Shown: in pieces, positions 1,939 through 17,988 of the stretch
Position numbering within the stretch: the stretch's first letter is position 1
Layout: the number at the start of each line of letters is the position of its first letter
Source: Verrucomicrobiota bacterium
GTDB lineage: Bacteria; Verrucomicrobiota; Verrucomicrobiia; Limisphaerales; UBA9464
Length of the DNA: 48,477 bases
Assembly (NCBI GenBank): GCA_947471985.1
Contig: CANIZL010000048.1
Span: 1-48,477 of the forward strand
Reading direction: 5' to 3'
The notes under the pieces: model-generated
The model's input: only the letters and a program-made list of their open reading frames with translations
Databases searched by the model: none
Told to the model about the DNA's origin: nothing
Made by a program: the position numbers and the translations under genes

Positions 1939-2217
1939 ATGAACATCACGGCGACCTCCCGGCCTCGGCGCGCGGAACGAATCCTCAAGCAGGAGGCGGA
2001 GGGTTCCGTGGTGCTGCTGTCGGTGGACTCCGGCGGGTATTATTCCCTTGATGCCTTGGGGGGAAGAGTATGGGACCTGTGCTCCGGTGACCTGACGGTA
2101 TCCGACATCGCCGGTCGGCTGGAGCAGGAGTACGATGCGCCACGGGCCACCATCGAGGCTGACTTGCTGGAACTTTTGTCCGATCTCGCTCGTGAAAAAC
2201 TGGTCCGCGATTCTTAG
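1939..2217 (+). CDS. PqqD-like peptide-binding protein (RRE type) of a RiPP-like cassette
   Basis: This 92-residue protein has the PqqD pattern. An N-terminal strand region (ILKQEAEGSVVLL) leads to GGYYSLDALGGRVWDL (32-47) and then a winged-helix-like helical part (TVSDIAGRLEQEYD, ADLLELLSDL) ending REKLV. In the family such proteins bind the leader of a precursor peptide and present it to modifying enzymes in the cytoplasm. The start at 1939 was chosen because the in-frame extension upstream is translated repeat. The next gene overlaps its 3' end by 26 bases in another frame, suggesting translational coupling. Together with the B2-like protease, HprK-related kinase and nucleotidyltransferase downstream, it resembles the HPr-rel-A/lasso accessory set. 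I see no precursor peptide nearby, so the substrate is unknown. Confidence 0.85.
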   Translation: MNITATSRPRRAERILKQEAEGSVVLLSVDSGGYYSLDALGGRVWDLCSGDLTVSDIAGRLEQEYDAPRATIEADLLELLSDLAREKLVRDS

Positions 2218-2689
2218 CCGCCGCTGGGCCATCCTCCGGGAGATCGAAGGTGCCGCGGGTGCCGGGCTTTTTCTGCGGGCGCTGGGGTTCGGCGTCGCGG
2301 TCCCGGCGTTGATGCGCATGAGCCTGCTGACGTTGAATCGTCGACTCAGCCGGCGCTTCCCGGTCCCGGGAACCTGCACTCCGGAGTCCCCGCTTGGACA
2401 GTCGGTGCGGCGGGGTGTGGATGGGGCGTTGGCGTGGGGGCGGCCGCTGGTGCGGTCGGGGTGTTTGTCCCGGGGATTGACCCGGTACTATTTTCTTCGA
2501 CGCGCGGGTATCGATGTGACGCTCGTGTTTGGGATTCCCCGAAAGGAGGGAGTGCTTTTGACGGAACCTGGGCATTGTTGGTTGGAGTGGGCTGGGAAGC
2601 CGATTTGGGAGGACCGGGATCCGGGGTTGGGGTTCGTGCCGATTTACCAGATGCCGATGGGTGGGGCGGGGGAGATTCACGCCGACTAA
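2192..2689 (+). CDS. Lasso-peptide B2-like transglutaminase-fold cysteine protease
   Basis: This 165-residue protein matches the Transglut_core3/lasso-B2 family. Residues 87-105 (VRSGCLSRGLTRYYFLRRA) carry the expected catalytic Cys91. GHCWLEW carries His128, 37 residues later, and an acidic residue follows at Asp141 or Asp143 (WEDRDP). The family cleaves leader peptides from RiPP precursors bound by a PqqD-like partner. The GTG start at 2192 overlaps the pqqD-like gene by 26 bases; an ATG at 2135 would give a 19-residue longer, less convincing N-terminus. The last four residues and the TAA stop lie inside a dispersed repeat module, so the original C-terminus may have been replaced. The catalytic core looks intact. 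Confidence 0.83.
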   Translation: MKNWSAILSRRWAILREIEGAAGAGLFLRALGFGVAVPALMRMSLLTLNRRLSRRFPVPGTCTPESPLGQSVRRGVDGALAWGRPLVRSGCLSRGLTRYYFLRRAGIDVTLVFGIPRKEGVLLTEPGHCWLEWAGKPIWEDRDPGLGFVPIYQMPMGGAGEIHAD

Positions 2690-2703
2690 AAAGTCAGCGG
2701 TAC
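2674..2703 (+). repeat. Short repeat module (GACT...AGTC type) at the 3' end of the B2-like gene
   Basis: GATTCACGCCGACT followed by AAAAAGTCAGCGGTAC matches the modules at 2866-2894 and 3081-3110 and, on the other strand, near 148-176. In this copy the T after GAC is followed by AA, creating the TAA stop of the preceding gene. Confidence 0.7.
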
Positions 2704-2947
2704 CGTAGCGCCGGTTTTCAACCGGCCTCGGGGTGCGGTGCCAGGTAATTTTGCCGACGGATGCAACCCATTCAGGGTTGGGGAATTTGGCGGTGAGACC
2801 CAGGGTAGATCGTACCGATCAACCCTGGGATGGAGGATGCAATCCCGTTGGGATTGGGAAGGGGATGCACGCCGACTCGAAAGTCAGCGGTACGAGGCGA
2901 AGGAAGAATTATGAAGGAGGAAGGAAGAAGAAGGGGGCGACCGCGGA
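2704..2947 (+). repeat. Right copy of the ~245-bp multi-hairpin element
   Basis: This is the inverted partner of 96-341. Visible hairpins, in order, are: GCCGGTT/AACCGGC with a 3-nt loop (2710-2726); CAACCC/GGGTTG with a 5-nt loop (2764-2780); CCCAGGGTAGATCG/CGATCAACCCTGGG with loop TAC and one A-A mismatch (2799-2829); AATCCC/GGGATT with loop GTT (2841-2855); and the GACT/AGTC module (2874-2885). A purine-rich GGAAGAA tract follows and leads into the CCGCGG arm of the next element. The gap 2690-3185 between the B2-like and kinase genes is almost entirely repeat, and no gene is supported in it. Confidence 0.85.
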
Positions 2948-3041
2948 TAACGCGGATGGCGCGGATAAAGCAGAGGATGAAGCGGTGTGGACCTGTTTCG
3001 TTTATCCGTGTTATCCGCGCTATCCGCGGTTCAATTTTTGG
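2940..3041. repeat. ~100-bp element with inverted 29-bp arms, copy 2
   Basis: This is the same element and orientation as 1778-1880, about 95 percent identical by eye. It starts at CCGCGG (2941) immediately after the multi-hairpin element and ends in the complementary arm and CAATTTTTGG. The junction with the upstream purine-rich tract is the same as at position 96, where the arm is expanded into the 9-bp array. Confidence 0.85.
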
Positions 3042-3080
3042 ACCCGTGGCCCGTTCCGTGGAAGCGGGTGGAGGTGGCGG

Positions 3081-3110
3081 GATGCTCGCCGACTGGAAAG
3101 TCAGCGTACC
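3081..3110 (+). repeat. Isolated copy of the GACT...AGTC module
   Basis: GATGCTCGCCGACT plus GGAAAGTCAGCGTACC matches the short module seen at 2674 and 2866. Here it stands alone about 75 bases before the kinase start, so the module can move or persist independently of the larger element. Confidence 0.65.
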
Positions 3111-3185
3111 GGAGGACGGCGGAAAATTGGTTGGAGTGGCGGGCAATCGTTGCCTTGGAGGGAATTCCGCGGACGTTCCCACCCA

Positions 3186-4163
3186 ATGCAGTTCACTTGC
3201 CAGTTTCATGGTCTGGGTCTGGCCGTGCAGGCCGATGCCCCGGTGCTGGCGGCCGTGCAGGCGCGTTTGCATGAGTTTCCCCCGCTGCCGGCGGGCGAGC
3301 GGGTCGATTGGCATTTCGACTACGTGCCCGTGTCCGGACCCGAGGCGCATGTCGTCGAACGTCCGTCTGGTCCGTCCCGGTCCGTGATGGAGCTTCGCCA
3401 CGCTGAGGTGCTTTATTTTGAGGCCACGCGGCAGTTGTATGTGGAAGCTCCCGGCCGGGCGCGGGTTTTGTGCGACGCGGCCGCCGGACGCGTGCGGGTT
3501 TCCTATCTGGCCACGGTGCCGGATCAACCGTGGTTCCTGTCGCATCCGCTCTTCACCATCCCGTTGCATGAAGTGCTGAAACATCAGGGTTTGTACATGC
3601 TCCATGCGGCGGCCCTGGCCGAACGCGGGCGGGGACTGTTGGTGGCGGGTTCCAGCGGTGCCGGGAAGACGACGCTGGCGCTGACGTTGCTCCGCGCGGG
3701 GTTTGGTTTTCTGGGGGACGACACGGTGTTCTTGCAGCGGCGCGACACCGCCTGGAGCGCCCAGGCGTTTCCGGATGAAATCGATATCACCCCGCAGACC
3801 GCCGCGTTCTTTCCCGAACTCCAGCGCCTGCCGGCAGTGGCCGCACCGGTGGGAAGACCCAAACGGGCCATCTCCGCGAGCGATGTCTACGATGTGCTCC
3901 CGCAGTGGCACGCAGTACCAGCGGTATTAGTTTTTCCGCAGACGCTGTCCGACGGTGCCAGCCGGGTCGCGCCGATGAGTCGGGAGGAAGCGTTGCTGCA
4001 ACTCATCCCCAATGTCATTCGCACCGAGGTGGCGACGTCCCAAGCGCATCTCGACGCCCTCGCCGGTCTGGTGCGGCAATGCGCGTGTTATCGATTTTGG
4101 GCGGGCCGGGATTTTGCCGCGATGCCCGCACTGATGCGGTCCTTGCTGGAGGCGGCTCCGTGA
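3186..4163 (+). CDS. HPr-kinase-related kinase (HprK-rel-A type) of the RiPP-like cassette
   Basis: This 325-residue protein has an HprK-like C-terminal kinase domain. The conserved LHAAAL stretch (139-144) precedes a P-loop GSSGAGKTT (155-163), followed by the GDD motif (FLGDDTVFL, about 177-185) and a later PDEIDIT segment. Residues 1-130 form a variable N-terminal domain. True HPr kinases phosphorylate Ser46 of HPr, but no HPr gene is seen here. Relatives in lasso and HPr-rel-A loci act on, or are thought to act on, the peptide product. The ATG at 3186 was chosen because the longer frame upstream reads through repeats. It overlaps the next gene by four bases (GTGA), so both are probably translated together. 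Substrate is unknown. Confidence 0.85.
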   Translation: MQFTCQFHGLGLAVQADAPVLAAVQARLHEFPPLPAGERVDWHFDYVPVSGPEAHVVERPSGPSRSVMELRHAEVLYFEATRQLYVEAPGRARVLCDAAAGRVRVSYLATVPDQPWFLSHPLFTIPLHEVLKHQGLYMLHAAALAERGRGLLVAGSSGAGKTTLALTLLRAGFGFLGDDTVFLQRRDTAWSAQAFPDEIDITPQTAAFFPELQRLPAVAAPVGRPKRAISASDVYDVLPQWHAVPAVLVFPQTLSDGASRVAPMSREEALLQLIPNVIRTEVATSQAHLDALAGLVRQCACYRFWAGRDFAAMPALMRSLLEAAP

Positions 4164-5494
4164 AGGTGATGAGTGAAGCGTGGCACCACGATTGGTTGGT
4201 GCAGTGTCTGGCGGCCGTTCCGGAACAAAACCAAGTCGTCCCGCCGCACCCCGTCGTTGCTCATGACGAGGCGGACTGGGCGGCGTTGATCCGACTGGCC
4301 GAGCGACACGATGTCGTACCGCTCCTGTATCATCAACTGCACCAGGCGGGTCGTGGCTGGGGCGTGACGGAACGGGTGCGGGGAGAACTGCGGCAGGCGT
4401 TCCTCGTGAACGGCGCGCGCAATGCCCTGCATTATCACGAACTGGCGCCCGTGCTTCGGGCGCTGCGGACGGCAGGGATTCCGTGCCTGGTCCTGAAGGG
4501 CGCCCATTTGGCCGCGTTGGTTTACTCTCAGCCCGCACTACGAACCATGGCCGATATCGATTTGCTGGTTCCGGTGGACGCTTTGCTCCCAGCGGGAGCG
4601 GTTCTGCGCTCGCTGGGCTATGCGGATGCGGAAGACTCGACCTGCGGGGCGGTCGATGAAACGGTCATGCACCTGCCGCGGATGTTTAAACCGCCGGGGC
4701 TGGGCATCGAGGTTCACCATACCATTTCCCGACCTCAGTTGCCGTTTTGCGTGGATGTCGAGGGCCTGTGGCAGCGCGCCCGCACGGTGGAGTTGGCGGG
4801 GGAATCGACGCAGGTGCTGTCGCCTGAGGACGTGCTGCTGTACCTCTGTCTGCACACGGCCAGTCACGCGCGGGAAAGTCAGGGACTCGACCTGGCACCG
4901 TTTCTCCTCGGATTGAAGCCCCTGTGCGACATCGTCGCGATGGTGCGCCGTCATGGGCCCGACTTGGATTGGGCAGCGGTGCGGGAGCGGGCGACGGCGT
5001 GGCGGGCGGGGCGATGCGTCTTTCTTTCGTTGTGGTTGGCGCAGGATTTGTTGGGGTTGGAAGTGCCGGCGTCCGTGTTGGAATCCCTGCGACCTGCGGA
5101 TTTTGCGGACGATTGGGCCGAATTGGCGCGAAAACAAATCCGCCTGGCGGGAACCGAAGCGCCGGACGCCGACGTGTTGCGCACGACGTTTGCGCCGTGG
5201 ATGGAATGGGATAAACGGCGTCACACGGGCGAGCGGCGGGGTTGGTTGGGCGTGCTGTTTCGGGCGCTGATTCCGTCGCGCGATCAGGTGGATCGTCGGG
5301 TGACCGGGGCGGGGCCGGCGACCGCAGCGCCGGGTCAGGTATCCTCGTACTTTTTCACCCGAACCTGGCGCTGGTCGGTGAGGATTGCCCGCATGACAGG
5401 CTATGCGCTGCGGCATCCCTGGCAGACCGCCCGCTACGTCCGTCACATTCGCAATCAGATGCGGTTGTGGAATTGGTTGGAAGATCAGCGGTAG
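4160..5494 (+). CDS. NTP_transf_5-type nucleotidyltransferase family protein of the cassette
   Basis: This 444-residue protein has the signature of the uncharacterised nucleotidyltransferase family common beside PqqD, B2 and HprK-like genes. VLKGAHLAALVY (111-122) precedes LRTMADIDLLVP (127-138), where the DID pair would bind metal. The HHTISRP (EVHH) and SPEDVLLYLCLHTASH segments follow. The rest is helical. The GTG at 4160 was chosen because GGAGG lies seven bases upstream and it overlaps the kinase stop; ATG at 4169 is the alternative. By family the protein may transfer a nucleotide to a protein or peptide, but the reaction is not known. It is the last gene of the cassette; the next gene starts about 100 bases later. 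Confidence 0.85.
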   Translation: MKVMSEAWHHDWLVQCLAAVPEQNQVVPPHPVVAHDEADWAALIRLAERHDVVPLLYHQLHQAGRGWGVTERVRGELRQAFLVNGARNALHYHELAPVLRALRTAGIPCLVLKGAHLAALVYSQPALRTMADIDLLVPVDALLPAGAVLRSLGYADAEDSTCGAVDETVMHLPRMFKPPGLGIEVHHTISRPQLPFCVDVEGLWQRARTVELAGESTQVLSPEDVLLYLCLHTASHARESQGLDLAPFLLGLKPLCDIVAMVRRHGPDLDWAAVRERATAWRAGRCVFLSLWLAQDLLGLEVPASVLESLRPADFADDWAELARKQIRLAGTEAPDADVLRTTFAPWMEWDKRRHTGERRGWLGVLFRALIPSRDQVDRRVTGAGPATAAPGQVSSYFFTRTWRWSVRIARMTGYALRHPWQTARYVRHIRNQMRLWNWLEDQR

Positions 5495-5590
5495 TCGAAC
5501 GCTGGGCGAACGACGGACTCGTCGGCCTCGTTTCAGGGAAGGCGTGCGTTGGTTGAATCCCGTGCCAGAATGGCCGTCCACATCACTTCT

Positions 5591-8500
5591 ATGCTGCCCC
5601 GTCCTGTGTTTCGGAAAGCCACGTATTTTAAACTGACGTGTCTCTGGCTCGGCCTTGTTTCCCCGGTGCGGGCGGACGAGGACCCGTTCGCGGCGGGCGT
5701 GCGCACGACGGATCCGCTACCGCCGGTCGAGCAGCGTGCGCATTTCAAATTGCCTCCGGGCTTTGAGATCCAACTCGTCGCCACCGAGCCCGAGATCAAC
5801 AAGCCCATGAACCTGGCCTTCGATGCCACGGGCCGGCTCTGGGTCACGACCAGCATTGAGTATCCGTGGCCGGCGCCGACGAATCGTCCGGGCCGGGATC
5901 GGGTGATGATTTTTGACGACTTCGGCCCCGATGGACGCGCGCGCAAGGTGACCACGTTTGCCGAGGGGCTGAATATTCCGATCGGCGTTTATCCGTTCCG
6001 CAATGCGGACAAGAAGTGGAAAGCGCTGGTCTGGAGCATTCCGTACATCTGGTTGTTGGAGGATACGGACGGCGACGGAAAGGCGGACAAACGCACGCCG
6101 CTGTACGGCCCGTTTGATCACACGCGGGATACTCACGGCAATCAGGCATCGTTCCGCCGCGGTTTCGATGGCTGGCTCTACGCGACCCATGGGTTTAACA
6201 ATGATTCGCACGTTACGGCGCCGGACGGCAGTCACGTCGATCTCAATTCCGGCAATACCTACCGCATCCGCCTCGATGGCTCGCACATCGAACATCACAC
6301 GCACGGGCAGGTGAATCCCTTTGGACTCGCGTGGGATCCGTGGGGTGATCTGTATTCCAGCGACTGTCATAGCGCGCCGGTTTATCAACTGCTGGCGGGT
6401 GGGTTCTATCCGAGTTTCGGCAAGCCGCACGACGGTCTGGGATTCGCTCCGACGATGATCGAGCACGCGCACGGCTCGACGGCGATCGACGGTTTGGTGT
6501 ATGTGGCCGATGACCTTTGGCCGGCGGAATATCGCGACAATGTTTTCATTGGGAACGTGATGACGAGCCGGTTGAACCGGGATCGCCTGGAATGGATTGG
6601 TGCCACGCCCAAGGCGGTGGAGATGCCGGATTTTCTGACCACGACGGACCCGTGGTTTCGCCCGGTGGATGATTGTTTTGGCCCGGATGGCGCGCTGTAC
6701 ATCGCGGACTTTTACAACCGGATCATCGGCCATTACGAAGTGCCACTCACGCATCCGGGTCGGGATCGCGAACGCGGCCGGATCTGGCGGATCGTGCCCA
6801 CCGGGGCGCCGCTGCGTCCGCGGGCGCTGGCGGACGATTTGCCGGGACTGATCGGTGAACTCGGATCCGGCAGCCTGAATCGTCGGCTGCTGGCGGGCGC
6901 GGAAATCGTGGATCGCTTTGGGGTTTCGGCGTCCGCGGCATTGGATGCGGCGGCGCTGAAGGGCGACAACGCGTTTGCGCGGATTCACGCCAGCGCCTTG
7001 CGGCGTCAATTGCCGGGCGGCGAGACCAGTGGCGACAGCCTGCTGACGAGTACCGATCCGCAACAACGGCTGCACGGACTACGCCGGCTGGGTGAGGGCA
7101 CGCGCCCGGACGCGGCGGCGGTGGCGCGGAAATTCCTGACGGATGCGCATCCGCGGGTGGTGCGGGTGGCGGTGGAAGTGTTGGGCAAATTTCCGGAGTT
7201 CGAGAATGTCCGGCCGCTGCTGGAGTTGCGCGCGAAGGTGCCGGCGGCGGATACGCATCTGACGTACGTGGTCCGCAAGGCGCTGCGCGATCAATTGAAG
7301 TCCACCGCGGTTTTTGAAAAAGTGGTGGCGGCCCAGTGGTCGCCGGGGGAAACACGGTATCTCGGCGACGTGGTGCTGGCGGTGGCTTCGCCGGCGGCGG
7401 GCGCCTTTCTGGTGCGGAACCTCGCGCACTTGGGCTTCGATCGCGAAGGCCTGCTGGCCGCGTTGCAACACGCAGCACGGTATGCGCCCGAGGGCGATTT
7501 ATCGCAGTTGGCGACGCTGGCGCGGGAACATGGGGATCTGACGACACAGCTGAGTTTGTTCAACTCGGTGGACCAGGGCCTGCGTCAACGCGGGGTGGCG
7601 CTGCCTTCGGTTCTGCAGGAATGGGGTGCGGGATTGGTGGGCCAGTTGCTGAATCGCCCGGAACCGACGGCGGGCTGGTTTAATACCGCGTTGCCGACGG
7701 CGCCCACGGCGGTCACGTGGGATTTCGAAGAACGCAGTTTTGCAGATGGGCAGCGCGGGCGGGTGTTGTCGAGCCTGCCCGGCGGCGAAGCGCTGACGGG
7801 TGTATTGCGGTCGCCGGAGTTTGCGGCGCCGGCGGCGTTGTCCTTTTGGCTGTGTGGTCATGACGGTTATCCGGACAAGCCGGAACAGAAGCGCAATGCG
7901 GTGCGATTGCGGGCGGCGGATTCCGGCGAAGTGCTCTTCACGGCGTGGCCGCCCCGGTCGGATGTGGGGCAGCGCATCGCGTGGAATCTGGCGGCGTTGT
8001 CCGGGCGTCGGGTGTTTCTGGAAGTGACCGACGGGGACACCGGTGCGGCGTATGCCTGGCTGGCGCTGGGGCGGATGGAGCCGGCGTCCGTGCCGTTTCC
8101 GACGACCGGACTGCGCTCCGGAGCGACGCCGGTGGCGACGGCGGCGAATCTCGCCAGCCGGTTGCAGCTGGTGTCGCACGCGCCCCGGTTCCGGGCGGAG
8201 GCCCGCCGGGTGGATGCCGATGGGGAGAGTCGAACGGCCGCGGCGAAGGCGGCCCTGGCGCTGGATGCGGCCGCGGCCTTGCCGGAGTTGATCCCGCTCT
8301 TCCAGTCGCCGACCACGGCGCCAGCTTTGCGTGAATCGCTGGGGACACTGCTGGCGGAACAGAATGTGCCCGCGGCGCGCGCGGCGGTGGTGGCGGCGCT
8401 CAAGACCGCTTCGGATCGCGTGCAGAAGAACTGGGGCCTGGCGCTGACGGGAAATCGCGATGGCGCGGAGGTGTTTTTGAAAGCCGTGGAAGACGGCAAC

Positions 8501-9088
8501 GCTTCGGCGCGGCTGTTGCAATTGGCGGGCGCCCGGAATCGGTTGCGCACAGCGAATCCGATGGACTGGGAAGCCCGCGTGGCGCGGCTCACCAAGGATC
8601 TGCCCCCGGCGGATGAAGCCCGCGACAAGCTGATCGCCGCCCGGCGGGTGGCCTATCAGGCCGCGGCGACGGCCGCGGCCCGGCCCGCGGAAGGTCGGGC
8701 GATCTTTGAAAAAAACTGTGCGCTCTGTCATCGCATCGGCACCACCGGCGCCCTCGTCGGGCCGCAGCTTGATGGCATTGGGAATCGGGGACTCGACCGC
8801 CTTTGCGAAGATGTGCTCGATCCGAATCGCAACGTGGATCATGCGTTTTACACCACCTCGATCACGCTGAAGGACGGCGAATCGGTCAGTGGCTTGTTCC
8901 GGCGGGAGGAAGGCGAACTGATCGTGCTGGCGAATGGCTTGGGGCAGGAGTTCACGGTGCCCAAACGCGAGGTGAAGGAGCGGACGGAGATTCCGTTGTC
9001 GCCGATGCCGGACAATTTCGGGGAAGCCCTTCCGGCCGAGGCCTTCAATCAGCTGTTGGCGTTTCTCCTGAACCAGACGGGGCGGTGA
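5591..9088 (+). CDS. PVC-type heme-binding CxxCH protein with beta-propeller-like N-domain and HEAT repeats
   Basis: This 1165-residue exported protein has a predicted signal peptide (about 1-24, ending SPVRA). The domain typical of planctomycete/verrucomicrobial membrane-bound dehydrogenase-like proteins (about 40-420) starts FKLPPGFEIQLVATEPEI and includes DTDGDGKAD. Helical HEAT-like repeats (about 430-700) are followed by a beta-rich lectin-like segment (about 710-835), more helices, and a C-terminal cytochrome c domain. Its heme motif is CALCH (1043-1047), with a likely distal Met in LSPMPDNF. By family it is probably a periplasmic electron-transfer or sugar-oxidation-linked protein; its substrate is unknown. 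The ATG at 5591 gives the best signal peptide; ATG 5570 is also in frame. A second, larger relative follows immediately downstream. Confidence 0.88.
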   Translation: MLPRPVFRKATYFKLTCLWLGLVSPVRADEDPFAAGVRTTDPLPPVEQRAHFKLPPGFEIQLVATEPEINKPMNLAFDATGRLWVTTSIEYPWPAPTNRPGRDRVMIFDDFGPDGRARKVTTFAEGLNIPIGVYPFRNADKKWKALVWSIPYIWLLEDTDGDGKADKRTPLYGPFDHTRDTHGNQASFRRGFDGWLYATHGFNNDSHVTAPDGSHVDLNSGNTYRIRLDGSHIEHHTHGQVNPFGLAWDPWGDLYSSDCHSAPVYQLLAGGFYPSFGKPHDGLGFAPTMIEHAHGSTAIDGLVYVADDLWPAEYRDNVFIGNVMTSRLNRDRLEWIGATPKAVEMPDFLTTTDPWFRPVDDCFGPDGALYIADFYNRIIGHYEVPLTHPGRDRERGRIWRIVPTGAPLRPRALADDLPGLIGELGSGSLNRRLLAGAEIVDRFGVSASAALDAAALKGDNAFARIHASALRRQLPGGETSGDSLLTSTDPQQRLHGLRRLGEGTRPDAAAVARKFLTDAHPRVVRVAVEVLGKFPEFENVRPLLELRAKVPAADTHLTYVVRKALRDQLKSTAVFEKVVAAQWSPGETRYLGDVVLAVASPAAGAFLVRNLAHLGFDREGLLAALQHAARYAPEGDLSQLATLAREHGDLTTQLSLFNSVDQGLRQRGVALPSVLQEWGAGLVGQLLNRPEPTAGWFNTALPTAPTAVTWDFEERSFADGQRGRVLSSLPGGEALTGVLRSPEFAAPAALSFWLCGHDGYPDKPEQKRNAVRLRAADSGEVLFTAWPPRSDVGQRIAWNLAALSGRRVFLEVTDGDTGAAYAWLALGRMEPASVPFPTTGLRSGATPVATAANLASRLQLVSHAPRFRAEARRVDADGESRTAAAKAALALDAAAALPELIPLFQSPTTAPALRESLGTLLAEQNVPAARAAVVAALKTASDRVQKNWGLALTGNRDGAEVFLKAVEDGNASARLLQLAGARNRLRTANPMDWEARVARLTKDLPPADEARDKLIAARRVAYQAAATAAARPAEGRAIFEKNCALCHRIGTTGALVGPQLDGIGNRGLDRLCEDVLDPNRNVDHAFYTTSITLKDGESVSGLFRREEGELIVLANGLGQEFTVPKREVKERTEIPLSPMPDNFGEALPAEAFNQLLAFLLNQTGR

Positions 9089-15396: not shown

Positions 15397-17988
15397 ATGA
15401 CAAAACCTGCTGAGCTGCTGCCGTCGTTGAACCCTGAATTGCCGGTCCTCCCGCCCGGCACCCATTTGCATCGGCTGGCCAACGGTCTGGAGATCATTCT
15501 GCGGCCTGATCCGAGCGCCCCGGTGATCAGCGCGCAGGCCTGGTGTCGCGCCGGAAGTGTCGACGAGGGGCAGTGGCTGGGGGCCGGCCTTTCCCACGTG
15601 CTGGAGCATATGCTGTTCAAGGGGACTTCGACCCGGGGAAGCGGACGCATTGATCAGGAGGTGCAGGCCGCCGGGGGCTACATGAACGCGTACACGTCGT
15701 TTGATCGCACGGTGTACTGGATCAACGCCCCCAGTTCGGGCACCCGCGTGGTGCTGGACATCCTGTGCGATATTTTTCAGAATGCGACGCTGCCGGCGGA
15801 TGAATTGACCAAGGAATTGGACGTGATCCGGCGGGAGATGGACATGGGGCAGGACGATCCCGGACGGCGCGCCAGCCAGGGCTTTTTTGCGGCGGCGTAC
15901 CAGCGGAGTCCGTTTCGGCACCCGGTGATCGGGCATCGGGACATTTTCGACCGCATTACGCGGGAGGATTTGGTGGCGTATTACCAGGCCAAGTATGCGC
16001 CGAACAACTGCTTTTTGGTGGTGGTGGGGGATTTTGATTCGGCGACGGTCCTCGCGCAGATCGAGGCGGCGTATGCCAGTTCCAAGGGACGCGCGGTGCC
16101 GCCGAGTTTTGTGCTGCCGGAACCGCGCCAGACGGCGCCGCGGGAATCGATTGAAACCGCCCCGGTGGAGCACGCGCATTTGCACCTCGGTTGGCACGTG
16201 GGGGACCAACGGGATGTCGATACGCCCGCGCTGGATGTCCTGGCGACCCTGTTGGGGCATGGTCGCAGTTCCCGCTTGTACCGCGCCGTGCGGGAGAAGG
16301 GGCTGGCTCATTCCGTCAGTGCCTGGACGTACACGCCCGGCTCGGTGGGGTTGTTCGGCGTGAGCGCGGTGTGTGACGCGGACAAGATTGAGGTGGTACG
16401 TCAGGCCATTCGGGAGGAGATTCAGCGGGTGACCCAGGAGCTGATGGGGAGCGACGAATTGGCCCGTGCGGTCAAGCAGTTCACCATCGGAACGCTGTCC
16501 ACGCGCAAGACGATGGAAGGCCAGGCTCAGGATTTGGGTAGCAGCTGGCTCGCGGCGGCGGATCTCCATTTCAGCGAACGGTATCTCGGTTCGGTGCGTC
16601 GGCTGGTGCCGGCCGATCTCCTGCGCATTGCGGCGAAGTATCTTCAGTCGGAGGGGCAGACGACGTACGTGTTGCGCCCGGCCGGGGATGCGACGACGGC
16701 GGCGGCGGCCGCGACCAAGGTGGCAGAAAATCCGACCCAGCTTTTTGTGCTTCGCAATGGCCTGCGCCTGTTGGTGAAGGAGGACCATCGTCTGCCCTTC
16801 GTGGAATTCCGCGCGGCCTTTGCCGGTGGATTGCTGGCGGAGACGTCCACGGATGCCGGATTGACGGCGCTCATGGCCAAGATGCTGGTGAAAGGCACCA
16901 CCGGGCGGAGTGCCGAGGACATCGCGGCGATGATCGAGAATGTCGGGGGCAGTCTGGAACCGTACGCGGGCAACAACAGCTTTGGGGTGACGGCGGAGGT
17001 GCTGACCGAAGACTTCGCGGTGGGATTGGAACTTTTTGCGGATGTCCTGCGGCATCCGGCGTGGCCCGACACGGCGTTGGAACGGGAGCGACAGATTCAG
17101 CTGGCGTCCATCAAGGGCCAGCGGGATCAGTTGTTGCAGTGTGCCTTTAAGTCGCTGCGCCGTCAGTTGTTTGGGGACGCGGGCTATGGCTTGGATGCCC
17201 TCGGGACCGAGAGCACGGTCAAGGGTTTTACCGCGACGGATCTCCAACGGTTTTATACGCGACTGCTGACTCCAGGGAACGGGGTGGTGGCCATCTATGG
17301 CGATGTCCGGACGGCGGCCGTTCAAGGGGCGATCGAGAAGGCGTTTGGTGATTGGACTTCACCGAACCCACCCTGGCAGGCGCCGGCGGAGAATCGGGTT
17401 CACTTGGGGCTCCGGTCCGACGAGTCCCGGGACAAGGAGCAGGCGGTGCTCGCCCTGGGGTTCCGAGGTACGACCCTGACCGCTCCGGATCGGTATGCCC
17501 TGGAGTTGATCCAGGAGGCGTGCAGTGACATGGGGTCGCGGTTGTTCATGCGGATCCGCGATGAACTGGGGCTCGCCTACTATGTGGGGGCATCGAATTT
17601 TGTGGGTCGGACGCCCGGGTACTTCGCGTTTTACTGCGGCACGGCGCCCGAGCAGGTGGACCTGGTGGAGCGGGAATTGCGCGCGCAGGCGGAGGAGATC
17701 CGGCTGAACGGGTTGACGGTGGACGAACTCACCCGCGCCAAGGCCAAGATCATCGGGCAGCGCCAGATCGGTCGACAGGATCTGGGGCAGGTGGCGCTTT
17801 CTGCGGCACTGGACGAGCTCTACGGACTGGGGCATGCGCACAGCGATGCTGACGATGCCCGGTACGAAGCGGTGACGTTGGACGAGGTGCGGGCGGCGGC
17901 GAACCGCTATCTGCAGGCGGACCAGGCGGCCGTGGCGATCATTCGCGGCAAGCCGACGGCCGTGGAGCCGGTGGTGCCGCAGGGCTGA
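15397..17988 (+). CDS. M16 family zinc metallopeptidase (two-domain)
   Basis: This 863-residue protein contains two M16 halves in one chain. The N-terminal half carries the inverted zinc motif HVLEH (67-71) in SHVLEHMLFKG and a downstream acidic helix (KELDVIRREM) for the third ligand. The C-terminal half (from about 440) is the non-catalytic partner with the typical RDELGLAYYVG segment. Family members cleave short or unfolded peptides as clam-shell chambers. No clear signal peptide is seen from the ATG at 15397. Longer in-frame extensions overlap the end of the GDSL gene and look unreal. The 120-bp gap upstream contains three imperfect GGAGGTNGNTCC-like units. Confidence 0.9.
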   Translation: MTKPAELLPSLNPELPVLPPGTHLHRLANGLEIILRPDPSAPVISAQAWCRAGSVDEGQWLGAGLSHVLEHMLFKGTSTRGSGRIDQEVQAAGGYMNAYTSFDRTVYWINAPSSGTRVVLDILCDIFQNATLPADELTKELDVIRREMDMGQDDPGRRASQGFFAAAYQRSPFRHPVIGHRDIFDRITREDLVAYYQAKYAPNNCFLVVVGDFDSATVLAQIEAAYASSKGRAVPPSFVLPEPRQTAPRESIETAPVEHAHLHLGWHVGDQRDVDTPALDVLATLLGHGRSSRLYRAVREKGLAHSVSAWTYTPGSVGLFGVSAVCDADKIEVVRQAIREEIQRVTQELMGSDELARAVKQFTIGTLSTRKTMEGQAQDLGSSWLAAADLHFSERYLGSVRRLVPADLLRIAAKYLQSEGQTTYVLRPAGDATTAAAAATKVAENPTQLFVLRNGLRLLVKEDHRLPFVEFRAAFAGGLLAETSTDAGLTALMAKMLVKGTTGRSAEDIAAMIENVGGSLEPYAGNNSFGVTAEVLTEDFAVGLELFADVLRHPAWPDTALERERQIQLASIKGQRDQLLQCAFKSLRRQLFGDAGYGLDALGTESTVKGFTATDLQRFYTRLLTPGNGVVAIYGDVRTAAVQGAIEKAFGDWTSPNPPWQAPAENRVHLGLRSDESRDKEQAVLALGFRGTTLTAPDRYALELIQEACSDMGSRLFMRIRDELGLAYYVGASNFVGRTPGYFAFYCGTAPEQVDLVERELRAQAEEIRLNGLTVDELTRAKAKIIGQRQIGRQDLGQVALSAALDELYGLGHAHSDADDARYEAVTLDEVRAAANRYLQADQAAVAIIRGKPTAVEPVVPQG

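Follow-up and report, generated by a model that had tools for sequence, protein, structure and literature searches.

A conserved PqqD-B2-kinase-nucleotidyltransferase cassette without a detected lasso cyclase in Verrucomicrobiota

Organization of the cassette

The sequence considered here (the window) is a stretch of 48,477 nucleotides from a Verrucomicrobiota bacterium (order Limisphaerales, GTDB lineage UBA9464), covering positions 1 to 48,477 of contig CANIZL010000048.1 in assembly GCA_947471985.1. It is the whole of one contig (C48) of a genome of 6.38 Mb in 180 contigs that is 96% complete. At positions 1939-5494 it carries four consecutive lasso-type tailoring genes, encoding a PqqD-family protein, a B2-type peptidase, an HprK-like kinase and an NTP_transf_5 protein (N). 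The cassette is real, is conserved in related bacteria, and is without a detected cyclase.

The first gene (1939-2217) encodes a 92-aa discrete RRE (recognition element of ribosomally synthesized and post-translationally modified peptides, RiPPs), a leader-binding adapter of the PqqD family (PF05402, 70.9 bits, cut-off 23.4). It is followed by a B2-type cysteine leader peptidase of 165 aa (2192-2689, GTG start; PF13471, 49.3 bits, cut-off 26), a 496-bp gap (2690-3185) made mostly of dispersed repeats, in which no precursor open reading frame (ORF) was recognised, an HprK-like kinase of 325 aa (3186-4163; PF07475, 29.8 bits, below the cut-off of 33.3), and N, a nucleotidyltransferase-family protein of 444 aa (4160-5494, GTG start; PF14907, 221.3 bits, cut-off 31.2). 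All four genes lie on the plus strand at exactly the coordinates given in the original prediction, and the two overlaps that it reported are both real, amounting to 26 nt between pqqD and B2 (GTG start at 2192, stop at 2217) and 4 nt between the kinase and N (4160-4163). The contig starts only 1938 bp upstream of pqqD, and a single PqqD and a single B2 were detected genome-wide.

Enzyme families and key residues

In lasso pathways, B2 is the leader peptidase and acts there together with a cyclase. The B2 protein of the window scores 44.2 bits against the NCBIfam lasso B2 model NF033537 (cut-off 33) and is thus a lasso-type B2 by this model. It keeps Cys91 and His128, with Cys in all 36 rows reaching that site and His in 37 of 37, while the supposed catalytic Asp falls in no conserved column among the 37 rows; of the Cys-His-Asp set previously described as intact, the first two residues are conserved and the third lacks such support. 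The PqqD protein qualifies as a lasso RRE (B1/PqqD) at the Pfam level through PF05402. It scores below the cut-offs of the lasso PqqD models NF033536 (56.1 bits, cut-off 80) and NF033530 (35.8 bits, cut-off 70), and is not of the PQQ-biosynthesis type by the curated model TIGR03859 (37.8 bits, cut-off 46). Its closest solved structure in a PDB sequence profile search is the lasso RRE TbiB1 (8.4e-10), with a weaker match (2.8e-4) to LppB (9x8z) from the linear polyphosphorylated peptide (LPP) system. PqqD D75, in the alignment and numbering of this analysis, is the same residue in all five aligned rows and aligns with LppB D70, the residue described as holding the leader Tyr (PMC13381572). PDB searches of the same kind found nothing for B2 at E ≤ 0.1 or for N at E ≤ 1.

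In the HPr-rel-A system, a PqqD-like protein and a nucleotidyltransferase accompany an HprK-related kinase. The window cassette differs from it by its B2 protease, and its kinase is not a member of this system, to which it had been likened, because the score of 60.4 bits against TIGR04352 (HprK_rel_A) is under the curated cut-off of 200. The kinase also stays under the cut-offs of TIGR04355 (51.1 bits, cut-off 200) and of the SynChlorMet ScmC model (19.7 bits, cut-off 125). Its His-Lys-Asp-Asp set (H140, K161, D178 and D179), of a kind reported to be essential in lasso-tailoring kinases (PMC9266682), is invariant in 4 of 4 aligned rows. The LKG and DxD stretches of N are intact, with K113, G114, D132 and D134 unchanged across all five aligned rows. 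Among PADLOC models only mad8 matched, on the kinase (E 0.0022).

Conservation in related genomes

A kinase search over 320 genomes of the order (E ≤ 1e-8) gave matches in nine, with near-full-length kinases in the window's own genome and in G132 (a Verrucomicrobia bin named Loclat, 75% complete), G700 (89% complete) and G543 (92% complete), which represent four families. The PqqD-B2-kinase core is present in all four at 38-57% identity with its key residues kept, and no cyclase adjoins it in G132, G700 or G543. The gene set, its order and conservation, and the key residues are directly observed. The cassette is thus known from three more genomes; neither of the findings that the prediction had named as speaking against it, a cyclase or the loss of catalytic residues in relatives, appeared.

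In G700 and G543 the B2 and kinase genes share 4 nt; in G132 they are 1 nt apart when the ATG start is taken. N follows the kinase in the window and precedes pqqD in G700 and G543, with a 4-nt overlap at the N/pqqD junction in G543 and, depending on the start codon, an overlap or a gap of about 40 nt in G700; no N was found in the 33 kb of the G132 contig examined. Since N sits on either side of the core in different genomes, the gene order changes and the set stays together. The G700 cassette adjoins polysaccharide export genes (Poly_export, Wzz, Bac_transf). A kinase-alignment search of further genome contigs, which used two narrow peptide patterns only, returned one locus, that already known in G132. 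No cassette was found in viral contigs, and no plasmid had the kinase or B2.

B2 was found in 27 of the 320 genomes of the order (E ≤ 1e-4) and in 16 of 387 genomes of the phylum (E ≤ 1e-5). PF13471 matches in G066, G070, G100, G111, G114, G582, G585, G588 and G254 were left out; apart from that of G111, they fall in reading frames of some 500 aa or more, and most are weak. Thirty-eight loci were compared, 20 of which hold a cyclase according to a model built in this analysis. The verrucomicrobial lasso-type loci carry the same PqqD, B2, kinase and N families as the window, often together, but differ from it in having a cyclase, in their kinases, and in their B2 motif, which reads HAW in all 20 cyclase-locus rows and HCW in the window, G132, G700, G543 and G642. 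A motif scan, inspected by eye, showed leader-like short ORFs at 12 of the 20 loci with a cyclase.

The kinase tree holds 25 rows, 13 from cyclase loci and 12 from loci without a detected cyclase; four weak matches, a fragment from locus L027 and ABC-like frames from L028, L132 and L146, were excluded on their E-values. One branch (support 97/94) unites nine kinases, from the window (W), G132 (locus L026), G700 (L060), G543 (L061), G642 (L062), G350 (L063), G127 (L028), G664 and G554. All nine come from loci without a detected cyclase and none of the 13 cyclase-locus rows falls inside, while the other three kinases from loci without a detected cyclase (L024, L143 and L147) group with lasso kinases. 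Within the nine-kinase branch, rows are long and the order is unsure, the group of W, L061, L026 and L060 being supported 98/99. The root of the B2 tree is poorly supported, and this tree was not used as clade evidence. The window B2 and kinase branches are not unusually long beside those of close relatives. In G664 (L142 1568-3217), a weak B2-like domain (23.5 bits, cut-off 26) is in frame with a family 2 glycosyltransferase.

Search for a lasso cyclase

PF00733, the family of asparagine-synthetase-type lasso cyclases, has no match on the window's contig. The genome-wide search for this family that had been suggested gave five proteins, all on other contigs, none of which prefers the lasso cyclase model NF033535. 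Those on contigs C3 and C11 are asparagine synthases, with 454 and 417 bits against TIGR01536 (AsnB, cut-off 267) and lower scores of 240 and 166 bits with the lasso cyclase model. With the AsnB model, the C57 protein reaches 29 bits and the C60 protein 33; neither matches the lasso model at E ≤ 1e-5, and the C77 protein matches neither model at this threshold. The preference is reversed in three cyclases from verrucomicrobial lasso loci: the lasso model gives them 437, 415 and 610 bits, in two cases short of its cut-off of 525, and the AsnB model 234, 195 and 235 bits. Because no PF00733 protein of this genome scores in the manner of these lasso cyclases, a lasso cyclase acting in trans is unlikely, and the absence of a cyclase originally predicted from the sequence holds, as far as can be detected, for the contig and for the 96% complete genome. 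The proteins on C57 (L019 1-1419) and C77 (L021 7839-9668) are two similar asparagine-synthase-like proteins that score like one in G132, and the neighbours of the former resemble sugar-nucleotide genes by eye.

In the relatives, G700 has a single PF00733 protein, above the AsnB cut-off, and G543 a single one of 50 bits that resembles the C60 protein by eye. G132 has two, one above the AsnB cut-off and one of 54 bits that is unclassified. All of these are off the cassette contigs. G642 has an AsnB and one unclassified protein of 52 bits. These results bear on the explanation that the cassette serves a true lasso pathway whose cyclase and precursor are encoded elsewhere in the genome. The B2 score above the lasso cut-off and the nearness of PqqD to TbiB1 would agree with it, and a gap in an assembly of 180 contigs could hide a cyclase. 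However, no PF00733 protein of this genome prefers the lasso cyclase model, and the sole representatives in the rather complete G700 and G543 genomes are, respectively, of AsnB type and like the C60 protein, which makes a true lasso pathway very improbable.

Search for a precursor peptide

The original prediction that no small ORF with a leader-like sequence accompanies the cassette agrees with motif scans of the cassette surroundings and of the window, in which the few matches were all dismissed. Two weakly matching ORFs on the minus strand (5989-6096 and 6406-6702) were dismissed because they are antisense to a large gene at 5549-9088, and the single match to a tighter motif over the whole window (17352-17528) was also judged spurious. 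When the motif scan was inspected by eye, none of the four close cassettes showed a small ORF convincing as a precursor; the matches at W (two), L026 (one) and L060 (one) were antisense, out of frame within a gene, or had no core after the motif. Model NF033521 gave five matches over the genome at E ≤ 10, the best with 15.6 bits and none above the cut-off of 19. Over six relatives (G127 not among them), it placed only G124 above the cut-off and missed the ORFs of G642 and G350 described below. An alignment of 15 leaders, 14 from cyclase loci and one from the G350 ORF, recovered G124 and G350, both its own rows, and missed the held-out ORFs of G642 and G127; its only match in the window's genome, on C75 (E 2.75), is a short ORF opposite a longer frame. 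A leader-matrix scan of 1,283,988 bases of the genome, window included, gave 57 ORFs above threshold, with none convincing by eye among the 40 of the 57 that were listed; in leave-one-out runs, 2 of 17 leaders fell below the scan threshold. A narrower motif matched nothing in the same bases, and a motif related to it had one match in L026, antisense.

Short ORFs with a [Y/F]xxP leader-like motif occur in three more distant members of the kinase branch (G642, G350 and G127) and are candidate peptides on the strength of their sequences. The order in G642 is PqqD-B2-ORF-kinase-N, with the 43-aa ORF sitting where the window has its repeat-filled gap; it contains YTKPEI, and its core would be free of Asp and Glu if cleaved one residue past its Thr. 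In G350 (L063 1840-7261), a 25-aa ORF with YQAPEV and DVTGGS, preceded by a ribosome-binding site that is purine-rich by eye, lies directly before the kinase; next come genes for a protein that weakly matches the AMP-binding family, for PqqD and B2, and for a further protein that weakly matches the radical SAM family. The locus is near polysaccharide genes. DVTGGS fits the T-x-x-S spacing described for LPP (PMC13381572). In G127 (L028 4388-12146), a 49-aa ORF with FQRPEL precedes PqqD, N, an HprK-like kinase, a Kdo/WaaP-type kinase, B2 and three radical SAM proteins, one of them with a B12-binding domain, forming an unusual RiPP-like cluster.

Repeats and flanking genes

Dispersed repeats at 1-391, 1501-1938 and 2690-3185, with up to seven occurrences in 1.28 Mb of the genome, flank the segment that carries an FGE-sulfatase-domain gene, pqqD and B2. 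Copies at 190-347 and 2697-2854 are inverted (158 nt, 88% complementary). The gap between B2 and the kinase matches elsewhere in the 1.28 Mb over 84% of its length, in up to six copies, and is partly made of inverted copies of 107-347; the last codons of B2 lie in a repeat copy (2671-2703). The 5' end of the contig (1-99) is a 9-bp tandem repeat, CATCCACGC, which may be the reason why the assembly stopped there. Repeats between B2 and the kinase that reach into the end of B2, together with the failure to find a cyclase or a precursor, would fit a decaying remnant of a lasso cluster from which both of these were lost. Such decay is quite unlikely in view of a core that is intact in genomes of four families, with its key residues kept at 38-57% identity, and of the ordinary length of the window branches in the B2 and kinase trees.

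The FGE-sulfatase-domain protein is encoded on the minus strand (392-1474; PF03781, 151.5 bits; start codon not fixed) and is a neighbour that is not shown to belong to the cassette; the other flanking gene encodes a DUF7133/cytochrome protein. The best G700 match of the FGE protein (62% identity; L060 52-2814), which also has an M23 peptidase domain, is encoded directly after the G700 cassette kinase. At E ≤ 1e-20, FGE matches number 5 in the window's genome (itself included), 10 in G700, 21 in G132 and 10 in G543; they are linked to the cassette in the window and G700, but not in G132 and G543. A conserved stretch of the protein reads FAAPDL or YQAPNL, fitting [Y/F]xxPxL, and the FGE-domain neighbour is noted as a lead only for a cassette substrate.

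Such a lead belongs to a further explanation, in which the cassette acts on a protein, for example a surface or polysaccharide-linked protein, and not on a short peptide, so that a missing precursor ORF would be unsurprising. It draws on the lack of a convincing precursor at the four close cassettes, the polysaccharide export genes in G700, and the linked FGE protein with its leader-like stretch. However, PqqD retains the Asp that in LppB holds the leader Tyr, and short leader-like ORFs are present in the more distant branch members. In addition, the start of the FGE protein is signal-peptide-like by eye, so that its motif would leave the cytosol, and its linkage fails in two of the four genomes. 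A protein substrate is accordingly unlikely; because no substrate was found, both this explanation and decay are kept in view.

Comparison with known systems

The nearest published logic, and a better comparison than those named in the original prediction, is that of the LPPs, described from Bacillota in 2026 (PMC13381572). As reported there, LPP clusters contain an RRE, an HprK-like kinase, an NTP transferase, the SpI-like peptidase LppS, an MsbA-like exporter and 1-3 precursors with the motif YxxPxVLxHQxIxFETxxS, contain no cyclase, and give linear polyphosphorylated intermediates; LppN was inactive in its test host. The same report calls LPPs restricted to Bacillota, and its main text does not contain the string ‘Verrucomicrob’. 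The window resembles these clusters in combining a discrete RRE, an HprK-like kinase and an NTP transferase without a macrolactam cyclase, with a linear phosphorylated product to be expected. It differs in having a B2 cysteine protease in place of LppS; the four cassette genes and both flanking genes belong to non-SpI families, and no genome-wide SpI search was made. The polysaccharide neighbourhood described for LPP is matched in G700 and G350, not in the window, and the window PqqD is closer by sequence to TbiB1 than to LppB. LPP clusters include their exporter and precursors, neither of which adjoins the window cassette: no MsbA-like exporter is among the two flanking genes, genes further off not having been scanned, and the predicted absence of an ABC exporter accordingly holds for these two genes only. 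Because LppS, the exporter and an adjacent precursor are not in the cluster, the window cassette is treated as a variant of the LPP type and not as one of its members.

Phosphorylated or phosphoglycosylated lasso peptides include paeninodin, the ThcoK and SyanK peptides, and pseudomycoidin (PMC8498205, PMC9266682). As described in these reports, their pathways share B1/PqqD, B2 and a His-Lys-Asp-Asp kinase with the window, and that of pseudomycoidin also a nucleotidyltransferase; unlike in these pathways, no cyclase was found in the window cassette or its genome, and no precursor was found. In the same accounts, PadeK and ThcoK phosphorylate a Ser, PsmN adds one or two hexoses to the phosphorylated Ser, and lasso B1 and B2 bind and remove the leader. 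No verrucomicrobial form of such a cassette was found in the open-licence literature.

Proposed function

The original idea of lasso-type tailoring genes without a cyclase, perhaps acting on a distant peptide or a non-lasso substrate, stands after the genome-wide cyclase check, the comparison with lasso loci and the discovery of three more cassettes. On balance, we lean towards a cyclase-less RiPP tailoring cassette that works in the manner of LPP and turns a precursor encoded elsewhere into a linear phosphorylated product. All of the biochemistry is inferred, as are the product and the existence and whereabouts of a precursor; the steps are suggested by the reports on PadeK and ThcoK, PsmN and lasso B1/B2. 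PqqD would bind the YxxP-type leader of a short precursor, and the kinase would phosphorylate a core Ser once or several times, as do PadeK, ThcoK and LppK. N would modify that phosphate, perhaps with a hexose as reported for PsmN, and B2 would cut off the leader as in lasso pathways. The product would stay linear because there is no cyclase, and the precursor would be encoded elsewhere in the genome or have been lost in this strain.

Several observations weigh against this proposal. Scans of the window, of the three closest loci and of 1.28 Mb (20%) of the genome yielded no convincing precursor, and the leader models are insensitive, so that these genome-wide negatives are weak and cannot show absence. 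Neither an LppS-like gene nor an exporter flanks the cassette (by identification of the two flanking genes). LppB requires N33 for binding (PMC13381572), and this position is Asp in the window PqqD, as in TbiB1, and varies among relatives. Among the candidate peptides, the G642 ORF has no clear ribosome-binding site, and the G127 locus, with its three radical SAM genes, may belong to another chemistry. The repeats, which lie between the B2 and kinase genes and supply the last codons of B2, could be a sign of decay. Some of the nine loci are on short contigs or at contig ends (G543, G642 and G554), and the genome-wide PF00733 search covered the window's genome, G132, G700, G543 and G642, but not G350, G127, G664 or G554.

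A broader proposal, to which we give somewhat less than even chances, is that Verrucomicrobiota possess their own class of linear phospho- or phosphoglyco-RiPPs, in which a PqqD-B2-kinase-N module would have arisen from lasso machinery apart from the Bacillota LPPs, B2 would cut peptides that are never cyclised, and the precursor would be distant in the branch of the window. A conserved module of RRE, B2, kinase and, mostly, N without a cyclase would show that phosphate tailoring can outlive the lasso knot, also outside Bacillota, and the cassette provides a small, testable enzyme set for asking what NTP_transf_5 proteins do to a phosphorylated residue.

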